Positions 8,505 to 19,176 of a stretch of 64,000 nucleotides of DNA are shown one piece after another (positions within the stretch are counted from its first letter, which is position 1; each line of letters begins with the position of its first letter). The notes under the pieces are model-generated. The model did not search any database, was not told where the DNA came from, and saw nothing but the letters and a program-made list of their open reading frames with translations. This DNA comes from Hyphococcus sp. Lineage in GTDB: Bacteria; Pseudomonadota; Alphaproteobacteria; Caulobacterales; Parvularculaceae. The stretch spans positions 62,001 to 126,000 of the forward strand of contig JAJFGB010000006.1 in NCBI GenBank assembly GCA_021776335.1. Reading direction: 5' to 3'. The position numbers and the translations under genes were made by a program.

Positions 8505-9086
8505 ATGAAAAGCAATGACGCACGACGATATAAGCGGGTCATCCTTAACCTGCCGGCGCGCATTGTCATTAATGTTGTCGATGAGTATCAGGGCGGGCTG
8601 ATCAATATATCGCCCGGAGATATGGCGCTCATTTCGGATGCGAAAGCAGTGGTGGGTGACGCAGCGGTCATCCATATCAAAGGTCTGGATGTAATCGAGG
8701 GTACGGTCGCCAGAATTTTTCCCGACGGCATCGGCATTTCCTACATTCTTTCAAAACGTCGGCGCACGATGTTGATTGAAAAACTGATGTTGCAGGCCAA
8801 TCCCGACTATGCTGAGGGCCTCGCGGATCGCCGCGATGCACCGCGGCATCGCGACTCAAACTCCAGAATGGTGTGCCGGCTCCCGGACGGCTCCGCCCTG
8901 TTCGTCAAAATTATCGACACATCCGTAGACGGCGTATCCGTAGATTCGCCACGCCGCCCGCCGGTTGGCGCCTCTATCTTTGTCGGCAGCCAACGCGGCG
9001 TTATCGTGCGTCACACACCGCGCGGATTTGTCGTTGTCTATGACGCTATGCGCGATGAGCCCAAAACCGTTCTGCGCGTCGTCTAG
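8505..9086 (+). CDS. Tandem PilZ domain protein
   Basis: RRYKRVILNLPARIVI...LINISPGDMAL (degenerate first motif) and RHRDSNSRMVCRLPDG...IIDTSVDGVSV (DxSxxG in second). Confidence 0.75.
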   Translation: MKSNDARRYKRVILNLPARIVINVVDEYQGGLINISPGDMALISDAKAVVGDAAVIHIKGLDVIEGTVARIFPDGIGISYILSKRRRTMLIEKLMLQANPDYAEGLADRRDAPRHRDSNSRMVCRLPDGSALFVKIIDTSVDGVSVDSPRRPPVGASIFVGSQRGVIVRHTPRGFVVVYDAMRDEPKTVLRVV

Positions 9087-11283: not shown

Positions 11284-12294
11284 TCAGGCTGTGCGTCTGG
11301 GCGCCCCGGGAAGACTCCCCGACATAACGGCGCCAGCTTGACGCCAATGGCCGCGCAAAAGCCGCCTTATCATCTGCACGACACCGCCGAGCATGAGTAA
11401 CGGCAGCACCACCGGACGCCATTTAAGCGCATAGAGCATGCGCGAGCGCGCCATATGATAGTCGGACATTGGTGACCGCTCGCCGGGCTGAACACGACTG
11501 CCCGCGGCAGCGCCATGGCGATGGTAAATGATCGCTGACGGGGCCCACACCGGCCGGCGAGTGGGGGCGCCACGACGCGTCCAGTCAGCTTCCTCATAAT
11601 AGAGAAAGAACCGCTCATCGAGACGGCCCGCGATATCCAGATAGTCTTTGCGAAACGCCATGGCAGCGCCAAGAGGGTAGCTTAATACCGCTTCCACGAC
11701 TTCGCGCGGTGGTGCCTCATTCATCGAACCTCCCGCGCCTATATTTTCACCCAGGAGCGTGAAGGCGTTGAGGCGAGCGCCCCCGAGAGCCTGAGCGCAA
11801 TTCGGGTTTTCATGACGAAACACGCTTGCGCCGCATAATCCCGCACTTTCATCAGCCAATCTCTCCACAAAAGCCGCCAGCGCGCCGGCGCCGATCAGCG
11901 CATCAGGATTGAGCAGTAAGTAAAAATCCGGATCCATCGTTTTTTGTAAAAAATCGATGCCAATATTACACCCCGCGGCGAAACCTTGGTTTTTCTCTCC
12001 GGCGATGACCGATATCTGAGCATCCCCAACCGACATGTGATGTGCGCCGATAAATCCAAATGTTACAGTCGAGGTTTCAGCAAATCTCGGCGCCGGATCT
12101 GCGCCCTGAGGCTGCAAACATTCGTGCCGGATCTCACCGCATGACACGCCTTTCAGGTAGTCAAGGGATTTGTCGGTAGATGCATTATCCACGATGACGA
12201 CGCGCGCCGTCGGGCTATCACCCACAGCGCTCAGGGCGGCGCTCAACGACAAAGGCGCGCAATTATAATTGACAATGACAATACCAAAATTCAT
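11284..12294 (-). CDS. Glycosyltransferase family 2 (rhamnosyltransferase-like)
   Basis: MNFGIVIVNYNCAPLSL...VVIVDNASTDKSLDYL...GFAAGCNIGID...LLLNPDALIG. Confidence 0.9.
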   Translation of the reverse strand: MNFGIVIVNYNCAPLSLSAALSAVGDSPTARVVIVDNASTDKSLDYLKGVSCGEIRHECLQPQGADPAPRFAETSTVTFGFIGAHHMSVGDAQISVIAGEKNQGFAAGCNIGIDFLQKTMDPDFYLLLNPDALIGAGALAAFVERLADESAGLCGASVFRHENPNCAQALGGARLNAFTLLGENIGAGGSMNEAPPREVVEAVLSYPLGAAMAFRKDYLDIAGRLDERFFLYYEEADWTRRGAPTRRPVWAPSAIIYHRHGAAAGSRVQPGERSPMSDYHMARSRMLYALKWRPVVLPLLMLGGVVQMIRRLLRGHWRQAGAVMSGSLPGAPRRTA

Positions 12295-12956
12295 GAGCCC
12301 TCTGCCAGGAACACGGCCCGCGCCGTTGGAGACAATGCACCCGTAAAGGCTTCCAGGAATGCGCTATGGACATCAAACACTGCATCGCTGGCGCCGGTTG
12401 ATGAAACGCGGATCAACGCGCCGTCGCTGACGCTGCGTAAACCGCGTTTGATATTCAAAATCTCATGGCCCGATACGTGACCAACATACGCATCGCCATC
12501 TCGCAGCAAATAGGACACTGCTTCGCGTCGTGTTGTGTTTTCAGTTTTCAGGCGGACAACTGGCGCCAAACCTTCTCCGACGTTGATCTGACCAATCTGC
12601 CGATTACTTATTGAAAATCCCTGCGCCACATAACAACTTTCCGGTCTGTGCAGACGGACTGAATCACCAAGCGGCGGGCCATAGGCGACAACCAGTGTGA
12701 TGACGCGTCCCGCCTGATCGCGATAGGCGCGATATGCAACCGCCTCGCCCGGCCCCAAATCGATCTCAGACGGCAATATGGCGGCGCCGAGCACAATCCG
12801 CGTCCAGTCGCCGAATTGATCAGGCAACATCGCTTCGATATCCGGCGCCGGCCTTGCAACAGGAGGGGGCGGCTGAACGACAGCCGCGGCGATCGCAACA
12901 ACGAAAATGATCGCGCTGACGAATGCCATTCTCGCCATCATACGCGGCGCTCCCAA
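12291..12956 (-). CDS. EpsI family exosortase-associated protein
   Basis: Signal/TM segment; ...VAYGPPLGDSVRLHRPESCYVAQGFSISNRQ (HxPExCY motif); directly follows the exosortase with overlap. Confidence 0.85.
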   Translation of the reverse strand: MGAPRMMARMAFVSAIIFVVAIAAAVVQPPPPVARPAPDIEAMLPDQFGDWTRIVLGAAILPSEIDLGPGEAVAYRAYRDQAGRVITLVVAYGPPLGDSVRLHRPESCYVAQGFSISNRQIGQINVGEGLAPVVRLKTENTTRREAVSYLLRDGDAYVGHVSGHEILNIKRGLRSVSDGALIRVSSTGASDAVFDVHSAFLEAFTGALSPTARAVFLAEGS

Positions 12957-13816
12957 AAAAATGCCGCCATAGCGTCCACGCCAAAAACACCAAGCAACGC
13001 CACAGCGAACATCATCAATCCAGCTGCTTCATGCAAATAGCTTTGGCCGGCGTCATATCCAAAATAATAGGTTATGAGCACCAACAAGCTGATGCGCACG
13101 ATATTCGCAACGATAGCGAGCGGTATCAGCGCCGCGACGACGGCCGCATTGGTCTTCCATGAGCGCCGCTTGGCGATATAGAGATAAACAGCGCCCACTG
13201 CCGTCAGAGCGATGAGTGAATTAAGCCCGGCGCATGCATCGGCGACCAACAGCTCATAGGAACCTGCGGAAATTACAGCGCCTGCATGGGCTATAGGCAA
13301 TCCCATTGCGAAGAGACCATCGCTAACGGATTCGGAAATCATCCGCTTGAGAGGCGCGGTCGCAGCATCAATAGCCCAGCCCGGCCATATGACGAGATAC
13401 AGCGTTAACAAAAGCGGAAACCATAATCTTTTTACGCCCGCAATACCGAACGCACAAAGAACAACCGCCAACGCTAAGATCGATTGCGAACCTGAAGACA
13501 GGATGTCGATCTGCCCGGTCCGACCCACAAAATACGCGGCTAACCCGGCGCCAAGAATACATAACCCCAACAAAAACTCATATCGGGCGGCAACCACGAA
13601 CGGCCGACTGTCAACAAGTCTGGCCCATGCGGCTCCGACACAGATCGCCATGATGAATGGCGCATGGCCGTTTTCCTCCCGCGCCCAGGCAGTCTGAGAA
13701 AATTCAACATAGATTGGCGCATATAACGACAACCATGCCGCGATAAGCATCAATGCAGGGGCGTAGATAGCCACCAATTTGGGTGTTGAAATCGGATCTG
13801 CGTTCGTGGTGTTCAT
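12938..13816 (-). CDS. Exosortase (Xrt family)
   Basis: Polytopic protein with catalytic Cys (VADACAGLNS), Arg (VANIVRIS) and His (LHEAAGLMMF) motifs; start set at MNTTNADPI. Confidence 0.9.
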   Translation of the reverse strand: MNTTNADPISTPKLVAIYAPALMLIAAWLSLYAPIYVEFSQTAWAREENGHAPFIMAICVGAAWARLVDSRPFVVAARYEFLLGLCILGAGLAAYFVGRTGQIDILSSGSQSILALAVVLCAFGIAGVKRLWFPLLLTLYLVIWPGWAIDAATAPLKRMISESVSDGLFAMGLPIAHAGAVISAGSYELLVADACAGLNSLIALTAVGAVYLYIAKRRSWKTNAAVVAALIPLAIVANIVRISLLVLITYYFGYDAGQSYLHEAAGLMMFAVALLGVFGVDAMAAFFWERRV

Positions 13817-13823
13817 AACAGCC

Positions 13824-14729
13824 TCACGCAGCCATTGCAGCGCCAATGATCTCGGCGCCGACGCCGCGCAGCACCGATCGCATCCGTTTAATGGTGTCCG
13901 CGCGGGTGTGGTCCTTGCGCGCCACGGTAATGACATGTTGCGTGGCCGCCCAGACAAACTCGACATCAGCTGCGCAGCCAAATGGCGTCGCCATCACAAT
14001 AACGATTTCATAGCTGTTGCGCGCCGTCTCCAACAGATCTTTAAATTCCTTCGCACCCAATATCGACTGCGGGTCACGCGTCGACGCGCCGGCGGGGAGA
14101 AGGTCCAATCCCTTTACCAGAGTAGCGCGGACGGCATCTGCGTAGCGCGCGTTACCAGCCACCACATCGGTGACGCCGGGCGCGCCCGGTTCACCGAACA
14201 TCTTCGCTAGTTTTGAATGGCGCAGATCAGCGTCAATGAGAACAACATGACGGCCAAGCTGAGCGAACGACGCCGCAAGATTGGCTGCGACATAGGCCGC
14301 CTCCACCTTTGCATCGACGGCAGTGATGGAAAGCAAACTGAGCTTGTCTCGCGCCGGGCCCGTGATCAGTCGTGTGCGCATCTGATTGAATTCTTCGGCT
14401 TCTTTGGAATAGGGATTTCGCAATACAACCAACGGCGCCGGGATGGAAACGGGCTCATTAGTTTCATGCAAAAAACCCAGTTGAACACCAAGTGCAAACT
14501 GCAAATCCCTCGGCGCAAGCATTCCAAGCCTGACGGCTGACCTTCCGAAGGGTTTGCCGGTTTTTGCCTGAAAAGCGCGTACCCGATCAACCTGGGCGGG
14601 ATCAAGACGCCCAAGGCGGATCAGGGTTTCACCAAGTTCATTCGATTGGTCGTCAGCAAACCGCGGCTGCAATTTCTTGGCAATTACTTTTTGCGCATGC
14701 TGCGGCGTCATAGGCGCTGTCAAACTCAT
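13824..14729 (-). CDS. CpsD/CapB (BY-kinase)-like protein with degenerate P-loop and an N-terminal MshEN/GspE-N-like region
   Basis: C-terminal: ITAVDAKVEAAYVAANLAASFAQLGRHVVLIDADLRHSKLAKMFG; N-terminal: LGETLIRLGRLDPAQVDRVRAFQAKTGKPFGRSAVRLGMLAPRDLQFALGVQLGF. Confidence 0.8.
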   Translation of the reverse strand: MSLTAPMTPQHAQKVIAKKLQPRFADDQSNELGETLIRLGRLDPAQVDRVRAFQAKTGKPFGRSAVRLGMLAPRDLQFALGVQLGFLHETNEPVSIPAPLVVLRNPYSKEAEEFNQMRTRLITGPARDKLSLLSITAVDAKVEAAYVAANLAASFAQLGRHVVLIDADLRHSKLAKMFGEPGAPGVTDVVAGNARYADAVRATLVKGLDLLPAGASTRDPQSILGAKEFKDLLETARNSYEIVIVMATPFGCAADVEFVWAATQHVITVARKDHTRADTIKRMRSVLRGVGAEIIGAAMAA

Positions 14730-16105
14730 TGAGCGCCTCCTGACGTTGCCGGCACTGTCAGTTTCGCGAGCACGGGTGCGCGCAGCAATTGCGCAAGCGC
14801 ATCTTCACCACGGATCCGACCCTCAACAAGTTCAACCGTCACAGCGGCAGCGCCGCCGAGGCCCAGGCCGGCAAAAATCCCTATCAAGATAATTATTGGC
14901 AGCGGCGGCGTCGTGGGGTGTTCCGCAGGAACAGCGCGCGCCAGTAGAAATAATTCAACGGAATCCACGCGCGACTGCAGCGCCTCCTGAAGCGACCGGG
15001 TCGCAACAAGGTCATATGTATCGCGACTCGCATCAACTTTTTTCTCTAACACGTCAAATTGCTGTTTGGTTTCCTGCAGATTGACGACAGTCCTTTTTTG
15101 ATCATCGACAGATGCGTTGAGTGACGCAACTCGACGCGCGGCGTATTCTGCGCGGTTCACCACTGCACGCATAATAGTCGCTTCCAAGGCGCGTTTTTCG
15201 TTTACCGCTTCAATATAGTCTGGATATTGTTCGCCATAGCGCTCACTGATGCGCTGAAGCTGAACCAGAACGACGCCAAGGCGCGACTGAGATTGGCGGC
15301 CGGCATGGGCATCTTGCGGCAACGGCAATGTCAGCAACTCAATATCCGATGCGGCGCGAGCCTGACGCAATAGTGATTGTGCTTCTGACAGGTCCGCACG
15401 CGCTTCGGCCAAACGCATCGTCACAGAAGCAAGCCCAACCTCTTCGCCTTCAAGACGTTGCGCACCAAGCGCCACAATCCCCGAGGTTTCTCGAAAAACC
15501 GTCAGCTCGCGCTGCGCGGCCTCCATATCCAACTCCAATGCATCCGTTTCTTCAGAAAAATTCACTGCATTGCGTGCAGCGCGACGCTGACGTTGGTTGA
15601 GCACGGTGCGCATATATGCGCTCGCAAATGCGTTCGTAATACGCGAGGCTTCCGATGCACTTTCGCTTCTGAATGATATCGTAATTGTGCCTGCATTTTC
15701 ATTTGGTTCGACGACGAGCTTCCGCAACATCTGGTCGGCCGCCCAGAGCCGGGCGTCGTTTCCAGAAACGACCTCTCCTCCCGTCTGCAAGCGCCATTCT
15801 GTTTCAAGGTCAGAAACGATGAAAACCCCTTCCGCCACGAGGGTGTCATACACTTGGAGAGCAACGTTTCGACTACCCGCCACCGCTGCCTGCTGACCAA
15901 GAAATTCAATCACGCGCAGACGTGGCTCAAACAGGCCGGTCAATGGGTTTTTCTGACGAGAATCAACCTGTATTCTTGCGGTTGATTTATATTCCGTTGG
16001 CGCGATGACCCCGGCGACCAAGGCGATCAACGCCGAGATCACGACTGCGGACACCACAAGAAACTTGCGCGCATTCAGAACAGCAATGAGCGCCAGAAGA
16101 CCCAT
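14726..16105 (-). CDS. Wzz/GumC-like polysaccharide chain-length/co-polymerase protein
   Basis: N- and C-terminal TMs, coiled-coil centre, YKSTARIQVDSRQKNPL and RAVPAEHPTTPPLPIIILIG proline-rich motif. Confidence 0.9.
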   Translation of the reverse strand: MGLLALIAVLNARKFLVVSAVVISALIALVAGVIAPTEYKSTARIQVDSRQKNPLTGLFEPRLRVIEFLGQQAAVAGSRNVALQVYDTLVAEGVFIVSDLETEWRLQTGGEVVSGNDARLWAADQMLRKLVVEPNENAGTITISFRSESASEASRITNAFASAYMRTVLNQRQRRAARNAVNFSEETDALELDMEAAQRELTVFRETSGIVALGAQRLEGEEVGLASVTMRLAEARADLSEAQSLLRQARAASDIELLTLPLPQDAHAGRQSQSRLGVVLVQLQRISERYGEQYPDYIEAVNEKRALEATIMRAVVNRAEYAARRVASLNASVDDQKRTVVNLQETKQQFDVLEKKVDASRDTYDLVATRSLQEALQSRVDSVELFLLARAVPAEHPTTPPLPIIILIGIFAGLGLGGAAAVTVELVEGRIRGEDALAQLLRAPVLAKLTVPATSGGAQ

Positions 16106-16981
16106 TTATCTTCCTTCACCTTCCGCGCCATTTGCGACGGGCGCCGCGGTCGCGCGAAAATAGGTAAGTGTTGATTTCTTTTTCAGGCTGGCGAGAATGT
16201 TTTCGGCGCGGGTTTGTGCAGATTGCCGCATCACAACACGCCGCGCCAATGCGAGCGCCTCTCTCATCGGAATCGGCGATGGCGTGATCGCATCAATTTT
16301 CATTATCTGCGTATCAATTTCGCCCGTGATGACAATGTTGTCATTGACGCCATATTGCGCAAGCTGACTACGCACCGCCTCTGGAAAAACATTAGAGGGT
16401 TGCGCCAACGGCGCTTCAGAAAAACGAATGTTGGATTTCTTCAATTGCTTCGATAAAGCTGCGAAGCTATTTGCTTCGTCGAATAGCGGCGTAAGCCTTT
16501 CCTGATCGAATGCATCACTCGGCATCGTCAACACAGAAAATGTATATATCCGTCGCTCTCTAAAAAGAGAGGGGTTTTGCGCTACAAAATCCTCGACCTC
16601 CTCCAGTGTCGGCTCCGGCGGCTGGGATACCGTCGTAATGTAAATATCTGCAAGGGCCTGCTCTCTCGCCATTGCCATCCGGCGCAACGCCTCGGGCCGA
16701 CGATGAATCTTTGCGGCGCGCGCCGCTGTAGTCAACAAAGCGCGATTTACGATGCTATCGAGGGCGATGCGTTCCGCGTTTACATCATTCGGCGACAGAC
16801 CAAGACGTGCTTGTTCGCTACGAAGGTCACTGATCGTGATTTCGCGCCCATCCAGCCTGGCGACGATTTGTGTTTTCCCACTCGCCGCGGTTTTCGATTC
16901 TGCGGCGAGTGTGGACGAATGAAATGAAGCGCACGCTATGATGCCAACCGTGCTGAGCACTACGAAACGCAAGCTGCGCAT
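16106..16981 (-). CDS. EpsD-like peptidyl-prolyl isomerase/SurA-N family protein
   Basis: Signal peptide; VARLDGREITISDLRSEQARLGLSPNDVNAERIALDSIVNRALLTTAARAAKI; located with Wzz and exosortase genes. Confidence 0.75.
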   Translation of the reverse strand: MRSLRFVVLSTVGIIACASFHSSTLAAESKTAASGKTQIVARLDGREITISDLRSEQARLGLSPNDVNAERIALDSIVNRALLTTAARAAKIHRRPEALRRMAMAREQALADIYITTVSQPPEPTLEEVEDFVAQNPSLFRERRIYTFSVLTMPSDAFDQERLTPLFDEANSFAALSKQLKKSNIRFSEAPLAQPSNVFPEAVRSQLAQYGVNDNIVITGEIDTQIMKIDAITPSPIPMREALALARRVVMRQSAQTRAENILASLKKKSTLTYFRATAAPVANGAEGEGR

Positions 16982-17024
16982 ATTACCTCTCCGATCCACC
17001 TTTGATCGGAGAACGCCGCTCCAG

Positions 17025-17903
17025 CTACAACATCGCCAACATTCGTCGCGCCCGCCAAAAGCGGATCCGCGTCAACACGCCCGCAGCAGCTGCTTTGTCC
17101 CGCACCCCTCTGATGCGTTTGCTGGACAAAATCCACGCTATATGCGGCACGGCTGATAACGCCGTTGCAACCGCAAGACCCACCCATCCCAGGCGGCGGG
17201 TCAAGCTACGCCCTCCGTAGCCATTCCAGCGCTCCAAAATAAGACGATCCCACTTATTCGTCAGATCTTCCCAGCTCCGGCGCGCCGGATGGCTTATGAT
17301 TGATGTATCGTTAAATGCTAAACGAAACCCTAGCGCGCGCGCGCGATGGCACCAGTCAGCGTCTTCTGCAACGCCGTTTTTAAACGGCCCGATAGCCATC
17401 GCGGCAGCACGCGTCGCAATCAAATTTGCAGTTACTGAAAAATGTTTACGGTTTATATAGATATGTTGACGAAATGCGAATACGCGCTCAAACGACTCAA
17501 CGGCGCTGGGCGCAGTTTCATTGGCCACCGTTACAACTACCTCACCGCCCGACAAATCACACTCAGTCAGCATATACACGCCATTTTCAAGCCAGCGTCG
17601 ATCAGCGACACAGTCTGCATCGATAAAAGCGAATACGTCCCCACGCGCAACCGCCATGCCTGCGTTACGCGCATGCGCCGCGCCGCGCGCTTCGACGGCA
17701 ACAAACCTGACGGATGGGTAGTCGCATTGCAGCTTGGTCAGATCACAAGGTGATCCATTGTCAGCAACGATGATTTCCATGCGCCCTTTCTCAATGGATT
17801 GAGACAGGACGCTTGAAAGGCACATCCTCAGCGCATCAGGCTGGTTAAAATGCGGAATGATGACGCTGAGTTCAGGCGCTTTCAATGAGTGATCTGAAGA
17901 CAT
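17025..17903 (-). CDS. Glycosyltransferase family 2
   Basis: LSVIIPHFNQPDALRMCLSSVLSQS...IIVADNGS...ARNAGMAVARGDVFAFIDADC. Confidence 0.92.
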   Translation of the reverse strand: MSSDHSLKAPELSVIIPHFNQPDALRMCLSSVLSQSIEKGRMEIIVADNGSPCDLTKLQCDYPSVRFVAVEARGAAHARNAGMAVARGDVFAFIDADCVADRRWLENGVYMLTECDLSGGEVVVTVANETAPSAVESFERVFAFRQHIYINRKHFSVTANLIATRAAAMAIGPFKNGVAEDADWCHRARALGFRLAFNDTSIISHPARRSWEDLTNKWDRLILERWNGYGGRSLTRRLGWVGLAVATALSAVPHIAWILSSKRIRGVRDKAAAAGVLTRIRFWRARRMLAML

Positions 17904-19176
17904 CGAGATAACGCTCTTTCTGACATTCCCATGAATAACGTGAAGCCAGCCGCTCGCGAGCCTTTGCCCCCATGGCGGCGCGTGTCGCCGGCGACTCGAT
18001 CAGGTTGGAAAGACACGCAGCAAGAGAGGCGGGATCGTTATTGACTGCATAAAAAGCCGAATCCCCGGCGATCTTCCTGCATTCTGCAAGGTCGAACATG
18101 ACAGATGGCAGACTGTAAGCCATGTATTCCATGATCTTGTTCATTGCGAGGCGGTCATTAAAGGAATTTTTGGGATCTGATCCAACCCCAATATCAGCCG
18201 TGGCAAAAGCGTTAGCCAGATCATCGCCATTTAGGAAACCGGCAAATGTAACGTGATCGCTGACGCCCAATTCGCTGGCGCGCGCCTCCATGAGCGATCG
18301 CTCCGGCCCCTCTCCTGCAACTAACAAGTGAAACCGGTCGCCGCCTGGTAAACCGCGCAGATTCAAAACCGCATCCAATAGCAAATCCAGTCCGTCTTGC
18401 GATCCGATAACGCCAACCCAAAAAACAAGAATCTCTTTTCCGGCTTTCAATCCTGGTGTTTTTTTACCTGGATTTAACCGTCCTAAATCAGGCGCCGAAT
18501 ATACGGTCAACGTATCTTCGGTTTTCTTCCCACCCGCATTAATTGCGTGAGCGCGGAAAGCCGCATTCGTTGCAATCGTCCGATCCGCAACTCTAAAGGT
18601 CATTTTTTCCGCCCAGCGCGCTATCCTCAGGAGGATGCCCGAGGCGGATCCCGTTTTTTGAACAAGCAATTCCGGCGTCAAGTCATGATGATCAAAGACG
18701 ATTTTGGCGCCGCCGAATTTCTTGGCAATCAAAGCGGGGGCGAAAAGAAAATCTGGCGGATTGCAAATCTGTACGACGTCGATATCGCGAACACCAAGCT
18801 GCAATAGGCGACAGCTTTCACAAAACAGGGCATTGGCGTATTCCAGCGCATATCCACCCATGTTACGCGCCTCGAACACCAGGGGATGACGGTAAACATC
18901 AATGCCCTCCAGAACCTCAAAAGCCGTACGATAAGAACCAACCTGTGGCGAGATGATGGAAACCCGCCAACCTTCTTCTTTCAAAGCGCGCGCCTGTTGC
19001 CACACTCTGCGGTCCGGCGGGACGGTCATGTTTTCGATGATGATTACGGCATGCGGCGACCGGTCGGACCGGCGACGCGCGCTCGGGCGCGATGAGGCTT
19101 CCGTCAACAGCGCGCTTTGTGCGGTTGCCACTTCTGGCGCAGCCAAACGCGGCGCATTAATATTGGTTTTTACCAA
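17872..19176 (-). CDS. Glycosyltransferase family 4
   Basis: IENMTVPPDRRVWQQARALKEEGWRVSIISP...FWVGVIGSQDGLDLLLDAV...FNDRLAMNKIMEYMAYSLPSVMFD. Confidence 0.92.
   Translation of the reverse strand: MVKTNINAPRLAAPEVATAQSALLTEASSRPSARRRSDRSPHAVIIIENMTVPPDRRVWQQARALKEEGWRVSIISPQVGSYRTAFEVLEGIDVYRHPLVFEARNMGGYALEYANALFCESCRLLQLGVRDIDVVQICNPPDFLFAPALIAKKFGGAKIVFDHHDLTPELLVQKTGSASGILLRIARWAEKMTFRVADRTIATNAAFRAHAINAGGKKTEDTLTVYSAPDLGRLNPGKKTPGLKAGKEILVFWVGVIGSQDGLDLLLDAVLNLRGLPGGDRFHLLVAGEGPERSLMEARASELGVSDHVTFAGFLNGDDLANAFATADIGVGSDPKNSFNDRLAMNKIMEYMAYSLPSVMFDLAECRKIAGDSAFYAVNNDPASLAACLSNLIESPATRAAMGAKARERLASRYSWECQKERYLDVFRSLIESA

Follow-up and report, generated by a model that had tools for sequence, protein, structure and literature searches.

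An EpsG-type BY-kinase-like protein of Hyphococcus sp. without catalytic motifs, a putative scaffold for the adjacent EpsF co-polymerase

What role may be played by a BY-kinase-like protein that has lost most of the motifs on which its kinase relatives depend, and is encoded beside a polysaccharide co-polymerase? This question is raised by positions 13824 to 14729 of the window (the whole 64,000-nucleotide stretch of Hyphococcus sp. DNA analysed here), which encode the protein referred to below as P0001. The favoured answer, with a probability of roughly 0.7, is that P0001 acts independently of phosphorylation, as a scaffold that forms rings for its Wzz-like neighbour EpsF. A pseudokinase or scaffold partnered with its Wzz-like neighbour had already been proposed in a sequence-only reading of the locus, and this proposal is supported by the fold, the family, the synteny, purifying selection, the interface residues found throughout the family, and the precedents of EcpK and HfsB.

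The Gene and Its Neighbourhood

The reading frame of P0001 lies on the minus strand, running from 14729 to 13824 over 301 codons, while the same interval is not open on the plus strand. The 4-nt overlap with the Wzz/GNVR gene (16105-14726), noted in the sequence-only reading, is correct, with the latter gene lying upstream, and all of the motifs quoted there are present in the translation. The genes of the cluster are as follows:

11284..12294 (-), GT2 glycosyltransferase of the conserved cluster (domain search, synteny)
12291..12956 (-), EpsI, exosortase-associated, ORF limits as listed (TIGR02914, 88.7 bits, cut-off 42.8)
12938..13816 (-), exosortase of the XrtV/XrtB type (NF035943, 229, cut-off 313; TIGR03113, 215, cut-off 275; TIGR02602, 120.7, cut-off 105.55), its start at 13816 picked by eye in a frame open to 13981
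13824..14729 (-), P0001, EpsG-type BY pseudokinase, 301 aa, ATG start (TIGR03029, predicted structure)
14726..16105 (-), EpsF (P0002), Wzz/GNVR polysaccharide co-polymerase without a kinase domain (Pfam Wzz, 5.1e-8; TIGR03017, 196.7 bits, cut-off 422.75)
16106..16999 (-), EpsD-like peptidyl-prolyl isomerase (TIGR02925, 98 bits, cut-off 108.9)
17025..17903 (-), GT2 glycosyltransferase of the conserved cluster (domain search, synteny)
17872..19176 (-), GT4 glycosyltransferase, also of the conserved cluster, with its limits taken from the ORF list (domain search, synteny)

The Wzz-like nature of the neighbour is borne out by the Pfam Wzz and TIGR03017 matches. In this protein of 459 aa, Wzz and GNVR are the sole notable matches, and no kinase-domain match was found. 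Its C-terminal tail, GRIRGEDALAQLLRAPVLAKL, resembles the docking tail of CapA, and the EpsF tails encoded beside EpsG often contain an R-[IV]-R...PVL-type segment like that of CapA, as judged by eye rather than by a statistical count.

The neighbours expected of an EpsG-type gene, that is, EpsD, EpsF, an exosortase, and EpsI, are all present at this locus. EpsF was found in 79/79 of the loci of a contig scan, and the exosortase and EpsI in 77/79. The order EpsD-EpsF-EpsG-exosortase-EpsI is identical in the relatives from the same genus and the same family, several of which also share the flanking genes. The cluster contains no outer-membrane exporter gene, and the one Poly_export match detected across the genome lies in a separate XrtA-type cluster (on contig C11), so the role of P0001 in a complete export pathway stays putative.

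A protein with two PilZ stretches (Pfam) is encoded nearby, at 8505-9086 (+); two relatives of the same genus and one of the same family also have a matching gene next to the cluster. In another genome (G713, locus L282, 8234-9650), the epsF frame is interrupted by a stop, which represents either a broken gene or an assembly error.

Catalytic Motifs and the EpsG Family

The best NCBIfam match of P0001 is TIGR03029 (“chain length determinant protein tyrosine kinase EpsG”), at 174 bits, under the cut-off of 313.8. The match covers the protein almost end to end (profile positions 2-272 of 274), including the N-terminal domain. The score against TIGR01007 is 106.6 bits, with a cut-off of 108.05, and reaches 108.1 in the genome-level search. 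P0001 is a divergent member of EpsG, and its nearest family is TIGR03029, not TIGR03018, which had been suggested for comparison. The motif positions are located as follows:

14274..14327 (-), degenerate Walker A (P-loop) position, residues 135-152, ITAVDAKVEAAYVAANLA (numbered I135-TAVDAKVEAAYVAANLA-152; translation, alignment, census)
14220..14240 (-), Walker A' LIDADLR, residues 164-170, retained (translation, alignment, census)
13980..14003 (-), Walker B position, residues 243-250, degenerate and reading VIVMATPF (translation, alignment, census)
13827..13904 (-), C-terminus without a Tyr cluster, residues 276-301 (translation, census)

P0001 lacks the Lys, both Gly, and the Ser/Thr of the P-loop, as well as the Asp of Walker B and a Tyr tail, and Walker A' is retained. 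The G-K-[ST] positions of Walker A are occupied by E143-A144-A145, M246 replaces the Walker B Asp, and the last 25 residues include zero Tyr, while both Asp of Walker A' are present (Asp166 and Asp168). The sequence-only reading had described the Walker A' as intact, the Walker B position as VIVMATPF, and the C-terminus as lacking a Tyr cluster, all of which agrees with the alignment. Its statement that P-loop Lys and Gly are lacking is correct at the canonical positions, and requires the qualification that K141 sits three residues before the Lys position. This residue was considered as a displaced P-loop Lys and rejected; in the relatives it is replaced by R, S, G, or N, or falls in a gap, and a position that varies in this way is not a conserved displaced lysine. 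Since both Asp of Walker A' are kept, the motif may still allow some residual contact with a nucleotide or a metal.

EpsG-type proteins and kinase-type controls were gathered by genome searches and one contig scan and aligned with MAFFT, and the motif columns were read. Five sequences initially assigned to EpsG were removed, namely L192, L193, and L031 (long, kinase-type), and the truncated L191 and L270, which left 174 full-length EpsG-type proteins beside the 71 controls. The contig scan yielded 80 loci from Massilia, Janthinobacterium, Rugamonas, Duganella, and their relatives; nearly half of the census is drawn from a single set of closely related genera, and its percentages are not global frequencies.

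The P-loop Lys is found in nine of the 174 EpsG-type proteins (L244, L254, L258, L260, L261, L262, L265, L266, and L268), and in 0/80 of the contig-scan loci; the other proteins mostly have Ala, Arg, Ser, Cys, Val, or Thr at this position. Two or more Tyr within the last 25 residues were found in none of the 174. In 153 of them, Walker B retains its Asp, and the second Walker A' Asp position is occupied by Asn (119), Asp (51), or Arg (4). Among the 71 controls, the Walker B Asp is present in all 71 and at least two C-terminal Tyr in 55, while the P-loop Lys is present in 69, as against 0/20 in the clade of P0001, a loss that exceeds chance. The Walker B Asp is kept in four members of this clade.

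The loss of the catalytic Lys and the missing Tyr tail are, on the evidence of these alignments, a trait of nearly the whole EpsG family in this sample. The pseudokinase trait thus stands for P0001, but is common to EpsG (TIGR03029) rather than peculiar to one protein. Above the TIGR03029 cut-off, the sample includes 44 places with 43 distinct sequences, all from one order, and the P-loop Lys is present in only one of these sequences (L244), so that an NCBIfam family that annotates tyrosine kinases appears, in this sample, to be composed mostly of pseudokinases. If this is true, the TIGR03029 annotations should change.

Predicted Structure and Oligomer Interface

The AlphaFold2 model of P0001, built with 42 relatives, has a pLDDT of 85.2 and a pTM of 0.77, with low confidence at residues 1-26. 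In Foldseek, this model matched CapA2B2, CapA1B1, and Wzc at E values of about 1e-14. Over some 200 columns, the rmsd is 1.5 Å to CapA1B1 and 1.6-1.8 Å to the kinase-domain chains of Wzc; the first-ranked row, 4jmp, has an rmsd of 8.0 across 226 columns. The place of the P-loop is modelled as a loop (138-143), followed by a helix from residue 144. On this model, P0001 has the BY-kinase fold.

14376..14396 (-), position of the EX2RX2R octamer-interface motif, E112-x2-N115-x2-R118 (census)

In CapB, the EX2RX2R motif is described as contributing one half of the octamer interface, and polysaccharide synthesis requires it (PMC3795738). Its three positions are kept in 172, 172, and 173 of the 174 EpsG-type proteins, and in 61, 62, and 56 of the 71 controls. 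P0001, with Asn (N115) in place of the first Arg, is one of two such exceptions.

Proposed Role and Known Systems

As an EpsG-type protein that appears to be catalytically dead, P0001 would perform no ATP-driven tyrosine phosphorylation. It may instead dock on the C-terminal cytoplasmic tail of EpsF, and assemble or hold the EpsF ring through the protein-protein interfaces of the BY-kinases, which would allow it to influence polysaccharide assembly by way of EpsF. The N-terminal domain would provide an extra cytoplasmic module, probably for protein contacts, and is unlikely to bind a ligand in P0001. We thus infer both the absence of phosphotransfer and the regulation of EpsF by P0001. Given that nearly the whole family has lost the catalytic Lys and is without the Tyr tail, the EpsG-family proteins in general are probably ring-forming scaffolds, not kinases. 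If so, the phosphorylation-independent control of co-polymerases would be far commoner than the two characterised examples suggest.

These examples are EcpK/EpsV and HfsB/HfsA, in which a BY pseudokinase is the partner of a co-polymerase without a kinase domain (PMC12004946); given their publication, the kind to which P0001 belongs is already known. EcpK of M. xanthus and HfsB of C. crescentus are BY-kinase-like, lack the catalytic motifs and the Tyr tail, and pair with a co-polymerase that has no kinase domain (PMC12004946), and P0001 likewise combines a BY-kinase fold devoid of catalytic motifs (Walker A' aside) or Tyr tail with a kinase-less partner, P0002. EcpK differs in its unstructured N-terminus, the loss of Walker A', and a gene located apart from that of its partner, whereas P0001 has an MshEN-like domain, retains Walker A', and has a gene that overlaps epsF. 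P0001 is, then, a variation on the EcpK/HfsB kind, from a different family, with a family-wide loss, the Walker A' kept, and an MshEN-like domain added. EpsG and the exosortases are unmentioned in PMC12004946.

The closest resemblance is to EpsG itself (TIGR03029, of the exosortase B/V-type eps clusters), which shares the two-domain architecture, the EpsD-EpsF-EpsG-exosortase-EpsI neighbourhood, and the absence of a Tyr tail, although the P-loop and Walker B of P0001 are more eroded than in a typical EpsG, and its MshEN motif is weaker. CapB1 and Wzc share the kinase-domain fold (rmsd 1.5-1.8 Å), and CapB1 and CapB2, like P0001, pair with a separate co-polymerase. In contrast, CapB, Wzc, and VpsO keep Walker A, A', and B and the Tyr cluster, and P0001 keeps only Walker A'. 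In a partial coverage of the literature, no paper was found that describes the EpsG of TIGR03029 as lacking Walker A. A study of Herbaspirillum, which made use of a reporter fused to epsG and of a mutant in epsB, refers to epsG as a glucosyltransferase gene and offers no evidence on kinase activity.

The N-terminal MshEN-Like Domain

14481..14636 (-), MshEN-like domain, residues 32-83, in a 24+5+24 arrangement (NF053729, profile matches, residue census)

This domain was absent from the sequence-only reading. Its 24+5+24 layout is that of the MshEN domains of MshE and PilF/PilB, and a profile of the P0001 family recovers the N-domains of MshE (5HTL, 5.9e-8) and PilF/PilB (PilF 6F8L, 1.2e-20). 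If the scaffold reading is true, such a domain would represent an alternative input to the control of the co-polymerase.

Given that MshEN is an established receptor of c-di-GMP (PMC5013675), P0001 might be a gated pseudokinase, in which the binding of c-di-GMP to the MshEN-like domain, instead of tyrosine phosphorylation, drives the assembly or disassembly of the EpsF ring. The family offers some encouragement for this idea, with NF053729, a MshE-related c-di-GMP motif, being matched at E <=0.001 in 42/49 EpsG, and its cut-off being reached, exceeded, or approached in seven of the 10 that were scanned (clearly in the six L202, L203, L244, L254, L143, and L043, and also in L019). By a rule-based count, motif II is intact in 133 of the 174 EpsG proteins, but motif I in just seven, and both in two. 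P0001 itself scores 28.1 bits, below the cut-off of 38, and differs from the MshEN receptors, both motifs of which have the form RLG...LxxxLxxQ, in the replacement of both motif Arg (E31 and P60) and one core Leu (R51). On the basis of these motif counts and scores, the binding of c-di-GMP is possible for the EpsG family, and unlikely for P0001, and the gated pseudokinase is an improbable account of this protein. The broader proposition that the whole family consists of c-di-GMP-sensing pseudokinases, in which the second messenger has replaced the tyrosine phosphorylation cycle in the assembly of exosortase-linked EPS co-polymerase rings, is improbable too, although slightly less so.

Other Kinases in the Same Genome

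The genome holds two other kinase/co-polymerase pairs with intact P-loops, on contigs C11 and C5. The first belongs to a separate XrtA-type EPS cluster (L275, G000:C11:228001-248000) with an exporter, a co-polymerase above the cut-off, and a kinase-like protein, which has an intact P-loop and a tail that contains Tyr. In the second (L276, G000:C5, 9967-16238), an exosortase of the XrtD (VPLPA) type lies beside a co-polymerase/CpsD-like pair, and a neighbouring protein ends in VPAPAALPLLISGLAGLGFAVRQKRRPL, a VPLPA-CTERM-like tail by eye. This XrtD and the exosortase of the P0001 cluster are the two exosortase genes seen in the genome. There are also two low-molecular-weight phosphatases, on C10 and C1, rather than on the contig of P0001.

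The presence of these kinases, and the proposal that CapB1 of S. aureus acts as a pseudokinase with CapB2 (PMC3795738), would fit a role for P0001 as the regulatory partner of an active BY-kinase encoded elsewhere, in mixed rings. The C11 and C5 kinases are, however, each paired with an adjacent co-polymerase of their own, similar CpsD-like proteins are present in same-genus genomes without EpsG, and EcpK is thought to be independent of active kinases (PMC12004946). Such mixed rings are very unlikely, and the scaffold for EpsF remains the preferred reading.

Evolution and Selection

In a quick maximum-likelihood tree, which contains several long branches and the misbinned kinase L031, P0001 groups with two same-genus proteins (support 96), and this group is nested in a 19-member clade (98). 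The presence or absence of the P-loop Lys changes at least five times on this tree, with neither the root nor the direction of the changes being fixed. The pairwise dN/dS is 0.03-0.31 across the pairs with computable dS, and 0.07-0.23 among the close pairs of the P0001 clade; the pair formed by P0001 and its nearest relative is saturated.

The variation within the clade bears on a further alternative, that P0001 is a non-canonical enzyme which relies on Walker A', or on a lysine in a displaced position, to bind a nucleotide, and retains some catalysis. Asp166, Asp168, and the nearby K141 could serve such an enzyme, and GK[ST] is kept in a minority of the EpsG proteins, with Arg there in others. 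But K141 is unconserved, the P-loop of the clade varies freely, with a 2-residue deletion in L015, the Walker B Asp has been lost in 16/20 of the clade, and the Tyr tail is absent, which leaves this alternative as remote as the mixed rings.

Decay of a gene without function, for which the fast variation of the P-loop region and the absence of EpsG from most of the same-genus genomes searched might speak, is the least credible alternative and was rejected, given that full-length open frames are found in 20/20 of the clade members collected, that the dN/dS is well below 1, and that the operon order is conserved, so the family is not decaying.

Outside the clade of P0001, the P-loop is equally eroded in L243, L247, L211, L221, and L245 (for example, DADEQSELLAANLA and DNGAPTGVFAANLA), which suggests, from the sequences, that the motif may have been eroded independently in other EpsG lineages. 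A stand-alone kinase-like protein of 303 aa (L021, G052:C45) has GCT instead of GKT, and falls inside EpsG in the tree, yet only its kinase-like part was matched by the EpsG profile.
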